Source of the DNA: Nitrospirota bacterium
GTDB taxonomy: Bacteria > Nitrospirota > Nitrospiria > JACQBW01
Length of the DNA stretch: 36,475 nucleotides
Assembly (NCBI GenBank): GCA_016178585.1
Contig: JACOTA010000020.1
Coordinates: forward strand, 1 to 36,475
Direction: 5' to 3'
Positions 5,144 to 32,350 of this stretch are shown in pieces; the first letter of the stretch is position 1, and the number at the start of each line of letters is the position of its first letter. The translations under genes and the position numbers were made by a program. The notes under the pieces are model-generated. The model did not search any database. It was not told where the DNA came from and saw nothing but the letters and a program-made list of their open reading frames with translations.

Positions 5144-5194
5144 TATCAGGCAACAAAAAACGTAACGTTTATATAAGAATCAATATTCATAAAT

Positions 5195-5306
5195 GAAGCA
5201 GCCGGCTTAGCCGGTGCGAAACGCGGGGTTCGGGAGAGAAAAACTTAGCTTCGCTGCGAGACCGCTCGCGAGCAAGCTTTGTGGCACAGGCTCCTGAATA
5301 TAATAA
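5195..5306 (+). repeat. Dispersed repeat family 1, copy A
   Basis: The order is a small hairpin (CCGGC-TTA-GCCGG at about 5202-5214), GCGAAACGCGGGGTTCGGG, a middle part with TTAGCTTCGCTGCG and GCTCGCGAGCAAGCTTTG, and a right end CTCCTGAATATAATAA. The GGTTCGGG block can pair with the CTGAAT right end. Related copies occur at 20505, 32121 and 32268. This copy ends 17 nt before the groES start. Confidence 0.8.
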
Positions 5307-7767: not shown

Positions 7768-7796
7768 TTGAAACGAAAAGAATATTCCCTTATATT
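7768..7796 (+). promoter_or_regulatory. Sigma-70 promoter for the Rieske-like gene
   Basis: TTGAAA (7768-7773), 17 nt, TATATT (7791-7796), with transcription expected near 7803 and a CCGGAGG site 10 nt later. It is divergent from and almost back-to-back with the hemL promoter. Confidence 0.6.
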
Positions 7797-7823
7797 AACC
7801 TGATTATTGTTCCGGAGGTTTTG

Positions 7824-8384
7824 ATGGAAGGCCAAGAAGAAAATCCGGACGTGCCTAAAGGTTTTTCTTCCTTAATCACGGGAACAGTTATTCCTGTCCT
7901 TTTATTTCTGGGTCTTCTCTGGGTCGGCATAAAGTTTTTAATTCCCACTGTCGAATATAAAGAACCTGCCGAAGTCAAAGCGGCTCCTCTGACTCAAATT
8001 CATGAAGGGGTCAACATGGAGTGGAGAAAGGATTACGAGTTCTATATCGTCAGGGAAGGCCATGTTTTATTCGTTTTAAGCGCGAAGGATAAGACCGCGG
8101 AAAAATTTTTTCATCAAAAAGCTTTGGTGATGTGGATCCCGGACCGGGATCAGTTTGTCGAGCAAAATCACGGGAGTCTTTATGACCGCCGTGGAAACGC
8201 CGTCGGAGGAGGAACGGTGTGGCCGTTAGATCGTCTGGCGGTTCGTTTAAATGACGCGGGAGAGGTCATTGTGGATCCCCGAAACGTTCAAAATATGGAT
8301 GGGGAAACAAAAAAGGTCAATAATCAATACAGTGTTGAAGAGGGTAGCCGCGAAGTGGAACCCTTTTTCCTCAGAATTCCTTGA
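7824..8384 (+). CDS. Membrane-anchored Rieske-fold-like protein lacking cluster ligands
   Basis: The protein has 186 aa from ATG 7824, with GGAGG 5 nt upstream. There is one transmembrane segment at residues 17-40. Residues 70-152 read like a Rieske domain: after FYIVREGHVLFVLSAK, the stretch NHGSLYDRRGNAVGGGTVWPLDRLAV parallels the CPCHGS.YD..G.V.GGPAP.PLDRL part of Rieske proteins. The first Cys-x-His ligand pair is absent (ALVMWIPDRD) and the second box keeps only H116, with EQN in place of the Cys-containing triplet. A 2Fe-2S cluster is therefore unlikely. The fold assignment is inference from motif spacing. It may be a structural subunit or a regulator of a quinol complex. Confidence 0.5.
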   Translation: MEGQEENPDVPKGFSSLITGTVIPVLLFLGLLWVGIKFLIPTVEYKEPAEVKAAPLTQIHEGVNMEWRKDYEFYIVREGHVLFVLSAKDKTAEKFFHQKALVMWIPDRDQFVEQNHGSLYDRRGNAVGGGTVWPLDRLAVRLNDAGEVIVDPRNVQNMDGETKKVNNQYSVEEGSREVEPFFLRIP

Positions 8385-8505
8385 GACTGTTGTAAAAGTC
8401 CAACTGCTTTGTTCTCGCCTCTTGACTTCCTCGACGCACCGACTAAGTGCGTCTGCGTTGTCTTCGGGGCTGCGGCCTCGCATTTGGAGCTTTTTCAACA
8501 GTCTC
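8383..8505. repeat. 123-bp palindromic dispersed element, type 2
   Basis: GAGACTGTTGTAAAAG at 8383-8398 is inverted at the right end (CTTTTTCAACAGTCTC, 8490-8505), with GTCCAA/TTGGAG extending the stems. The interior contains TGCTTTGTTCTCGCC, a GACGCAC...GTGCGTC hairpin and CTGCGTTGTCTTCGGGGC. I recall very similar elements as high-copy intergenic repeats in deltaproteobacterial and Nitrospira-like genomes. The left end overlaps the stop codon of the preceding gene. Confidence 0.7.
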
Positions 8506-8540
8506 TTGCGGAAATGTCATAAAATGAATGAAAGGAAAAA

Positions 8541-19710: not shown

Positions 19711-20502
19711 TTGACGAAAAAACCGCGGATTGGTATCGCGCTCAGCGGAGGAGCTGCCCGGTGTATCGCCCACCTTGGTGTTTTGGAGGTTCTTGAAAAA
19801 GAAGGGATCGTCATCGATTCCATTGCGGGAACCAGCGGAGGGGCTTTTGTCGGCGCCCTTTACGCGTCCGGCCTCGGCGTCGACAAAATCAAAGAGATCG
19901 CCCTTCAGCTTTCATGGAGAGCAATGGTTAAGCCTGTTTTTTCGAAACAAGGTTTAATCTCCGGGAAGAATCTCCATCGTTACATTTCTAAATATATTGG
20001 CGCTCTCCATTTTAAGGACCTTCAAATCCCTTTGGCTGTTGTCGCCGCAGATCTAAAATCAGGGGATAAAGTTGTCCTGACTGAGGGTTTGGTCTCCGAA
20101 GCGGTGACCGCCAGTTGCAGTCTCCCTGTCATCTTTTCCCCCGCGCATGGCGTCGGGAAAATCCTGGTTGACGGCGGAATCGCGAGTAATCTGCCGGTTT
20201 TGACCCTTGTCGAAAATATGGGAGCGACGCTGACGATTGCCGTCGATGTAAACGACCGGGCAAGGGAGCTTTCAAATTTGAACAATTTATTTCAAATCGG
20301 AATCCATACGGTGACTCTTTTTGCGAAAAAAAACGCCGCGGTTGAAAAAAGATTTGCCGATATCGTCATTAACGTGGATGCCTCCGGAATTTCCCTGATC
20401 GACCTTAAAAAAGGCCCGCTCATTCTTAAGAGGGGAAGGGCCGCCGCGGAAAAACAGATTCCTTTTTTAAAAAAATGTCTAAAAGAGTTTTCCTATTTTT
20501 AA
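19711..20502 (+). CDS. Patatin-like phospholipase, RssA-like
   Basis: The protein has 263 aa from TTG 19711, with GAAGGGG 6 nt upstream. It has the patatin catalytic dyad: S42 in GTSGG and D154 in VDGGIASNLP. The oxyanion region reads LSGGAARCIAHLGVL where the family normally has SGGGARG.AHIGVL: the third Gly is Ala and the Gly after Arg is Cys. The serine hydrolase acts on lipids or acyl esters in the cytosol or at the inner membrane. The final segment, KKGPLILKRGRAAAEKQIPFLKKCL, is typical of small bacterial homologues. It forms an operon with the preceding VOC gene (10 nt). Activity is likely but the oxyanion change deserves notice. Confidence 0.9.
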   Translation: MTKKPRIGIALSGGAARCIAHLGVLEVLEKEGIVIDSIAGTSGGAFVGALYASGLGVDKIKEIALQLSWRAMVKPVFSKQGLISGKNLHRYISKYIGALHFKDLQIPLAVVAADLKSGDKVVLTEGLVSEAVTASCSLPVIFSPAHGVGKILVDGGIASNLPVLTLVENMGATLTIAVDVNDRARELSNLNNLFQIGIHTVTLFAKKNAAVEKRFADIVINVDASGISLIDLKKGPLILKRGRAAAEKQIPFLKKCLKEFSYF

Positions 20503-20504
20503 GT

Positions 20505-20580
20505 GAGGCGACTGGCTATGCCAGCGCGAAACGAGGGCTTCGGGGGCATTGGGAGCGAAGCGAACAGGCCCCTGAATATT
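20505..20580 (+). repeat. Dispersed repeat family 1, copy B (short form)
   Basis: GAGGCGACTGGCTATGCCAG, GCGAAACGAGGGCTTCGGGGGC and GGCCCCTGAATATT appear in the family-1 order. It lacks the middle GCTCGCGAGC part of copies A and C1. It starts 3 nt after the patatin stop and ends 19 nt before the radA start. Confidence 0.75.
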
Positions 20581-25776: not shown

Positions 25777-25845
25777 ACCTTGAATTTGCCGTGAGAACCC
25801 TTTCCGGAATCCTTTTCGGAAGGTAGATGGTATTTGATAAACGCC

Positions 25846-25980
25846 CAAGAACAGAGTTAGAAAGCTGTCATTGCGAACAAAGTGAAGCAATCTCAAGACT
25901 TTACGATAAGATTGCCACGCACCCTTCGGTGCTCGCAATGACATGATTAATAAGTGGGTGCGAAGTCTATCGCTGGTCTT
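25846..25980 (+). repeat. Composite palindromic element (type 3), copy 1
   Basis: The outer arms are CAAGAACAGAGTTAGA (25846-25861) and TCTATCGCTGGTCTT (25966-25980), imperfectly inverted. The inner arms are GTCATTGCGAACAAAG (25867-25882) and GGTGCTCGCAATGAC (25928-25942). The inner GTCATTGCGAGC...GAAGCAATCTC...TCGCAATGAC type is a dispersed repeat I recall from many bacterial genomes. A second composite copy is at 27254-27390. The right end touches the ATG of the LysM gene. Confidence 0.8.
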
Positions 25981-27102
25981 ATGTTTCTAAACCATCTTAA
26001 AACAAAAGCGATTGTGCCTCTTTTATTTTTATTCATTTTTTTTCTCGTTTCGACAGGCCATTCTCAGGAAATTCCCGGTTCCGATTATAGTGTGAAAGAA
26101 GGGGATACCTTGTGGGGGATATCATCGTCTCATTACTCCGATCCGTTTTTATGGCCGAAACTTTGGGGGAAAAACCTTGCAATTTCTCATCCGGACAAGA
26201 TTTATCCTGGACAAAAAATATTTCTTCCGTCTGAAGAATTTTTAAAAGAGGTAGAAAAAAATAATCAGGCGGTTGAAACTGAAAAACCCTCTGAAATGCC
26301 TGAAGCGCCTAAACTTCAAGCTTCAATAGTCCCTTTCCCTCTTCAACCTGAAATCTCAGAGCCTGAACCTGAAGGGGTAACGCCGGTTTCCGCCTTAACC
26401 GAAACAGATCTTTTCACCAGCGGTTTTATCCTAAAAGATTCCTCAGCCATCGGGAAAATAGGAGAAATTATCGCGTCCGAAAATCAACATGCGCTTTTGG
26501 GAGAGGGGGACATCGTTTACCTTTTGCCGGTATCTTCCCATACCTTCCATATCGGCGAACGGTACTCTATTTACGAAGTCGTTCGATCGATTCATCATCC
26601 CCAAAGCCATCGTTTAATGGGAAAATTAATTCGTGTGAAAGGTTTCGTTGAAATAATTCCCAATCAGATGCCCGGATCCAGAAAAGAAACATTTTCGGCC
26701 AAAATCGTCAAATCTTTTGATCTGATTAGTTTAAAAGATTTTCTGATGCCGTATCAGTCGATGGATTTGATTGATTTAACCCTTCCTTTTCCAAAGGAAC
26801 TCAAGGGGACCATTGTCGGGACAAGGGACCTTAAAGAAAATAATGGTCCAAATGATTTTGTTTATTTGGATAAAGGGAGCCGGGACGGAGTTCAACGGGG
26901 CCATCTCTTCGTGGTTGTTAAGAACGGGAAAAAGGTTCCTTTTTTCTCTCCGGGGGGACGGGAAAGGTTGCCCCAGAGAATTATTGCGGAATTAGAGGTC
27001 GTCTCGGTTCAAAAAGAGACTTCTACAGCGATTGTTGCAAAAAGTATTGAGCCGGTCGTGGTTGGAGATCAAATCTCCAATCCTCCTCCCGCAACCCCCT
27101 GA
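25981..27102 (+). CDS. LysM-domain envelope protein
   Basis: The protein has 373 aa from ATG 25981; upstream in-frame codons fall in the repeat. Residues 8-27 are hydrophobic (KAIVPLLFLFIFFLVSTGHSQ), a signal peptide or anchor. LysM is at about 36-84: YSVKEGDTLWGISSSHYSDPFLWPKLWGKN...HPDKIYPGQKIFLPS, a peptidoglycan (GlcNAc) binding motif of the FimV/NlpD style (with the W.KLW.N variant). The remaining 280 residues are Pro/Glu-rich then beta-rich (VGEYSIYEVVRSIHHPQSHR..., FVYLDKGSRDGVQRGHLFVVVKNGKK), resembling secreted LysM proteins of Nitrospira- and delta-type bacteria. No enzyme motif is seen. It is flanked on both sides by copies of the same composite repeat. Confidence 0.83.
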   Translation: MFLNHLKTKAIVPLLFLFIFFLVSTGHSQEIPGSDYSVKEGDTLWGISSSHYSDPFLWPKLWGKNLAISHPDKIYPGQKIFLPSEEFLKEVEKNNQAVETEKPSEMPEAPKLQASIVPFPLQPEISEPEPEGVTPVSALTETDLFTSGFILKDSSAIGKIGEIIASENQHALLGEGDIVYLLPVSSHTFHIGERYSIYEVVRSIHHPQSHRLMGKLIRVKGFVEIIPNQMPGSRKETFSAKIVKSFDLISLKDFLMPYQSMDLIDLTLPFPKELKGTIVGTRDLKENNGPNDFVYLDKGSRDGVQRGHLFVVVKNGKKVPFFSPGGRERLPQRIIAELEVVSVQKETSTAIVAKSIEPVVVGDQISNPPPATP

Positions 27103-28359
<1,257 letters not shown>

Positions 28360-32074: not shown

Positions 32075-32098
32075 ACCGCAGTAATCAAAACAACCCGG

Positions 32099-32266
32099 AC
32101 GGGCCTCTGAATAAAATAAGAGAAGCAACTGGCTTTGCCAGTGACGGACTTGGGAATGGTCGTAGTTAGACCGAGCGGAACGCGGGGTTCGGGGGCTTAA
32201 AAAACTTAGCTTCGCTGCGGGATCGCTCGCGAGCAAGCTTTGTGGGACGGGCCCCTGAATAAAATA
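32099..32266 (+). repeat. Dispersed repeat family 1, copy C1 (with preceding tail)
   Basis: A family-1 right end (GGGCCTCTGAATAAAATAAG, 32100-32119) is followed by a full copy from 32121: hairpin ACTGGC-TTT-GCCAGT, a 33-nt segment found only here, CGGAACGCGGGGTTCGGGGGC, TTAGCTTCGCTGCGGGATCG, CGCGAGCAAGCTTTGTGG and GGGCCCCTGAATAAAATAA. It is nearly identical to copy A in the middle. Confidence 0.82.
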
Positions 32267-32267
32267 A

Positions 32268-32350
32268 GAGAAGCAACTAGCTTTGCTAGTGCGGAACGCG
32301 GGGTTCGGGGGCATTGAGAGTGAATTTCTCGAAGGCCCCTGAATATAATG
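32268..32350 (+). repeat. Dispersed repeat family 1, copy C2
   Basis: This copy is arranged head-to-tail with C1. Its hairpin is ACTAGC-TTT-GCTAGT, with compensating G-to-A and C-to-T changes against C1. It then has GCGGAACGCGGGGTTCGGGG, a different middle, and GAAGGCCCCTGAATATAATG. The right end runs into the start of the small gene at 32360. Confidence 0.82.

Follow-up and report, generated by a model that had tools for sequence, protein, structure and literature searches.

The window, a stretch of 36,475 nt, contained an intact ORF on the forward strand that begins with an ATG at 7824, ends with a stop codon at 8384, and encodes a protein of 186 aa (hereafter, X). The window genome (G000) was compared with the other two same-family genomes examined, G001 (JACQBY01, Nitrospirae bacterium NC_groundwater_954, a groundwater metagenome-assembled genome) and G002. 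The features of X and its upstream region were as follows (all on the + strand).

7768..7796, +, sigma70-like promoter of X, TTGAAA-17-TATATT (10/12 matches)
7814..7818, +, Shine-Dalgarno sequence of X, GGAGG, read in the sequence just 5′ of the ATG
7824..8384, +, X, cysteine-free PetC-type Rieske paralogue, 186 aa (from the ORF, homology, and the orthologues in G001 and G002)
7824..7871, +, N-terminal tail of X, aa 1–16, the most conserved X segment, without a twin-arginine motif
7872..7946, +, predicted transmembrane anchor of X, aa 17–41 (peak 19-residue hydropathy, 2.49)
8106..8123, +, degenerate box 1 of X, FFHQKA, aa 95–100, preceded by a 6-residue insertion; H97 invariant
8163..8177, +, degenerate box 2 of X, QNHGS, aa 114–118; both orthologues have WGS instead of HGS
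8280..8381, +, C-terminal tail of X, aa 153–186, homologous to the lineage-specific PetC tail

The intact gene, the promoter and the ribosome site reported in a preliminary description of this DNA were all found. The −35 and −10 hexamers were largely kept in the orthologous intergenic regions of G001 and G002, and the putative promoter and the GGAGG sequence support expression of X. Directly after the X stop codon, a dispersed repeat of ~125 bp with inverted ends (GACTGTTG...CAACAGTC) was located at 8383–8510; diverged copies (70–76%) were present elsewhere in the window genome and also in G001 and G002.

Orthologues of X were found in G001 (68% identity) and G002 (64% identity), and X occupied the same locus in three genera. 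The gene order in the window and in G001 was phoU-like, pit-like, groES-like, marC-like, hemL (divergent), X, gph, and two M16 peptidases, and the hemL-X-gph-M16-M16 core was also present in G002 (gene names were read off the sequences, not database-assigned). Among 270 genomes of the class, no X was found beyond the window genome, G001, and G002. Nor was a further X found in 396 genomes sampled evenly across the phylum. The remaining matches scored as ordinary Rieske proteins, and those that were aligned were ligand-bearing except one. No relatives of X were found in viral contigs and plasmids, and no cryptic X was found upstream of gph in other families. A search for neighbouring cytochrome b genes had been suggested, and none adjoined X, the neighbours being hemL, gph, and the two M16 peptidases. 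The locus showed no gene-neighbourhood link of X to any respiratory complex.

The Rieske relationship of X proposed in the preliminary description was confirmed by homology. When the profile of X was compared with the canonical PetC profile (hhalign), as had been recommended, the match had an E-value of about 1e-17 over residues 33–185 (145 columns) and spanned the end of the anchor, the hinge, the domain, and the C-terminal tail of the lineage. The PDB entry closest to X was 9rk3, kustd1480 of Kuenenia stuttgartiensis (phmmer, E = 6.5e-7; family profile, E = 1.8e-7). The NCBIfam PetC model was weakly matched by X (2.3e-4) and by one of its orthologues (7e-5). X aligned full-length with PetC of its own genome (G000:C19:18176, protein P0004) at about 32–35% identity. 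Both proteins have the hinge (YKEP in X vs. YEPP in PetC), the glycines of the core (GS, GN, GG), and the lineage-specific C-terminal tail, ending in VEPFF. Unlike PetC, X has no Cys ligands, no disulfide, and no Tat motif and does not lie beside cytochrome b; it also has the 6-residue insertion before box 1 and a more hydrophobic anchor. Homologues retaining the ligands were found as well: each of the three X-bearing genomes has a normal four-ligand PetC encoded next to cytochrome b. These alignments make X a divergent paralogue of PetC, the Rieske subunit of the bc/b6f-like complex in Nitrospirota, and we are highly confident that it is a cluster-free Rieske paralogue.

AlphaFold models of X were built with two-sequence alignments as input, and their mean pLDDT (41.6 for full-length X and 48.3 for the X domain) was too poor to confirm the fold. 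The nine best PDB matches of the low-confidence domain model were all Rieske structures (best E = 0.015, probability 0.98), as were the four best matches of the low-confidence full-length model. These fold-search matches are no more than suggestive. The quality of the models, together with Pfam, in which the whole protein had no match, Rieske or other, at E-values up to 5 (a scan of the anchor alone gave nothing useful), would agree with X being a non-Rieske protein whose likeness is a short motif match. Such a reading is hardly credible given the 145-column hhalign match and the phmmer match to 9rk3, and the Rieske structures recovered with the domain model also speak against it.

The cluster boxes were analyzed in an alignment of the X proteins with 46 other Rieske sequences. 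All 45 ligand-bearing comparison sequences retained both boxes. In X, neither the C-x-H-x-x-C of box 1 nor the C-P-C-H-G-S of box 2 of functional PetC was found. Box 1 (CRHLGC) was aligned with FFHQKA, MIHQTA, and LIHQKA in the three X proteins, only the His being in register, and box 2 (CPCHGS) was aligned with EQNHGS, EPSWGS, and EQTWGS. H97 was the sole ligand position retained in all three. The loss of cluster ligands noted in the preliminary description was therefore real, and it extends to every cysteine: the three X proteins contain none. Two details of that description were revised. The segment ALVMWIPDRD (100–109), given as the replacement of box 1, begins at the last residue of FFHQKA, aligns with a CTPNWFPDQQ stretch, and was rejected as box 1. 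H116, given as the only surviving ligand, does align with a ligand His in the window X; H97 aligns too, and H116 is replaced by Trp in both orthologues. The sequence of X excludes a standard Cys2His2 cluster site and, with it, Rieske-type electron transfer.

The remodelled site could instead bind another cofactor or ligand (metal, heme, or quinone) through H80 and H97. Both His residues were invariant in the three X proteins, and conservation was 75% over 12 residues at and near the box 1 loop, compared with 56% for the box 2 loop. However, more than half of all columns were invariant among three sequences, and two invariant His residues therefore mean little. X also has neither a heme c motif nor a cysteine, and the low-confidence AlphaFold models are unreliable for geometry. 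We consider the binding of another cofactor improbable.

Membrane anchoring of X, also claimed earlier, was borne out by prediction. The peak 19-residue hydropathy of 2.49 in X compares with about 1.3 in the same-genome PetC (PetC range, 0.7–1.7), and the low-confidence AlphaFold model showed a helix at residues 12–39. Nearly all PetC sequences carry the RR-x-F/L (Tat) motif, whereas none of the three X proteins does. Tat export is usual for Rieske proteins, as cluster insertion precedes export. A cluster-free protein would not need Tat, and we infer that the loss of Tat features in X fits the loss of the cluster. The predicted anchor is flanked by one K/R before and three after. By the positive-inside rule, these counts would place the X domain in the cytoplasm, where the PetC site would be inaccessible; thus, the domain may face the cytoplasm. 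When other proteins with the N-terminal module of X were searched for, a single 54-aa frame was obtained (E = 0.32), which is antisense to a ubiA-like gene and was taken as a chance match.

Pairwise dN among the three genomes, with dS saturated for X, was 0.22–0.27 for X, 0.15–0.18 for hemL, 0.14–0.20 for gph, and 0.09–0.11 for PetC. The rate of change of X was about 2.4-times that of PetC in the same genomes. No stop codons were found in the three X genes. The conservation of X was inverted relative to PetC: the N-terminal tail appeared best kept in X (88%, compared with 56% for the box 2 loop), whereas the cluster loops were best kept in PetC (box loops, 96–100%; N-tail, 63%), although the X figures come from three sequences only, which makes this argument thin. 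Residues 5–17 were invariant in all three X proteins. Judged from these substitution patterns, X is clearly under purifying selection, though faster-evolving than PetC. Its presence at one locus in three genera, with open frames and with this dN against saturated dS, agrees with the earlier claim that it is maintained rather than decaying. In the trees, X was placed on a very long branch, too long to date the duplication, and its grouping with the PetC of its own family was neither supported nor rejected (p-AU 0.056).

Decay of a PetC duplicate that is still open by chance would account for the higher dN of X, and another family does have one PetC duplicate that stands alone and whose ligands are damaged (G005, L058 6901–7458). 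Nevertheless, X is full-length and open in three genera at saturated dS, its segment 5–17 is fully invariant, its promoter is conserved, and its neighbours hemL and gph evolve just somewhat slower than X does. A decaying duplicate is thus a very unlikely explanation.

The paralogue of G005 (contig G005:C183), the second stand-alone PetC paralogue with altered ligands, belongs to another family of the class. Its box 1 is CRYEGC and its box 2 is CSCCGS, both ligand His residues being replaced (by Tyr and Cys), and the twin-arginine motif is retained. It is not flanked by a cytochrome b gene; upstream lies a CHASE2-like gene and downstream an amidohydrolase-like gene. A search of 267 class genomes yielded no close orthologue.

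In G000 and G002, petC was read as part of a full operon that also encodes a split cytochrome b and a c-type cytochrome. Neither of the window genome's two cytochrome b genes lies at the X locus, and each has its own ligand-bearing Rieske gene beside it. Because both are paired in this way, there is no orphan cytochrome b for X, and an orphan cytochrome b as its partner was ruled out.

The Cys ligands, the disulfide cysteines, and the Tat features were lost in X, yet X is under purifying selection, its locus was kept, and an intact PetC is present. These observations point to a diverged, neofunctionalised PetC paralogue that lost its [2Fe-2S] site and would be kept for a non-redox job, a reading to which we give slightly less than even credence. 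Maintenance of a membrane-anchored scaffold that lacks a redox centre suggests a function in structure, assembly, or regulation, and X is probably a membrane protein of this kind rather than a Rieske-type electron carrier. We propose that X would fold as an empty Rieske sandwich, would be inserted without Tat by means of its more hydrophobic anchor, and would act by protein-protein contact through the conserved N-terminal tail and the anchor. Its likeliest role would be to help assemble, stabilise, or regulate a membrane complex that handles quinol, with the PetC-bc complex as the first candidate. An accessory or assembly role is put forward tentatively, as somewhat more doubtful than the general reading, and the bc complex specifically is a rather unlikely partner. 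Counting against the explanation as a whole are the lack of a respiratory neighbourhood link, the K/R counts, the sample of three sequences, and the low confidence of the models.

X retains the full PetC architecture (anchor, hinge, Rieske core, and a C-terminal tail with VEPFF), as would be expected of a decoy or alternative subunit that replaces PetC in one monomer of the bc dimer, blocks quinol oxidation there, and throttles or re-routes the Q cycle. We doubt strongly that X acts in this way: the cluster loops, which would have to dock on cytochrome b, belong to the less conserved segments of X (box 2 loop, 56%), the anchor is very unlike that of PetC, the topology may be reversed, and there is no operon link. 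It is likewise a long shot that X is a dedicated redox-silent Rieske protein that either assembles with the bc complex or competes for it, switching its Q cycle, in which case the control surface would be the N-tail and anchor and not the cluster tip.

For X as a non-redox membrane protein, the nearest precedent is PSB33/LIL8/TEF5, an analogue in kind, likened here by description. These membrane-anchored Rieske-like proteins lack the residues that bind metal, and PSII assembly depends on TEF5 (PMC12164590; also PMC8003979); for the algal PSB33/TEF5 orthologue, ligands were assigned in PMC6006212. PSB33/TEF5 and X share a conserved, ligand-free Rieske-like domain with a membrane anchor, and the complex for whose assembly TEF5 is required, PSII, is quinone-reducing. 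However, the anchor helices are C-terminal in PSB33/TEF5 and N-terminal in X, the Rieske-like domain of PSB33/TEF5 is stromal, and PSB33/TEF5 proteins are confined to the green lineage, whereas X is from Nitrospirota. A second Rieske-family protein with substituted cluster ligands is the NirD-type subunit of Bacillus bataviensis, in which cluster Cys and His are replaced and function was proposed to persist (PMC3475470). NirD is a small nitrite-reductase subunit encoded with nirB, whereas X is membrane-anchored and is adjoined by no nitrite reductase gene; an assignment of X as NirD was rejected on the absence of nirB beside it and on its anchor.

The cluster is normally what defines a Rieske subunit of a quinol complex. 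X, a conserved paralogue without cluster, disulfide, or Tat signal in a genome that retains a working PetC, offers a natural test of what the Rieske scaffold does apart from electron transfer, and it provides a bacterial counterpart of PSB33/TEF5 in plants and algae.

Some further observations were made at the Rieske loci and in the window. In the window genome, A/V-type ATPase-like genes lead straight into the second Rieske-cytochrome b pair in an operon-like arrangement (L060 235–10360, G000:C70). A GltD-like oxidoreductase gene of roughly 600 aa lies directly 5′ of petC (L057 8244–10073, G000:C19). A GltD-like gene was also found before petC at L131 6214–8049 and L132 8619–10433, the arrangement being seen in the X family and in G005. 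In two further loci of the class, L129 and L130, that position held no such gene. The window also contains an intergenic repeat family other than the repeat at 8383–8510, with copies at 5189–5306, 20499–20559, and 32097–32324 (some 80–91% alike), and a dispersed repeat pair at 25844–25989 and 27252–27398. A frame across the copy at 25844–25989 (SLRAPKGAWQSYRKVLRLLHFVRNDSFLT) recurs elsewhere in this genome, in L062 and in L141.
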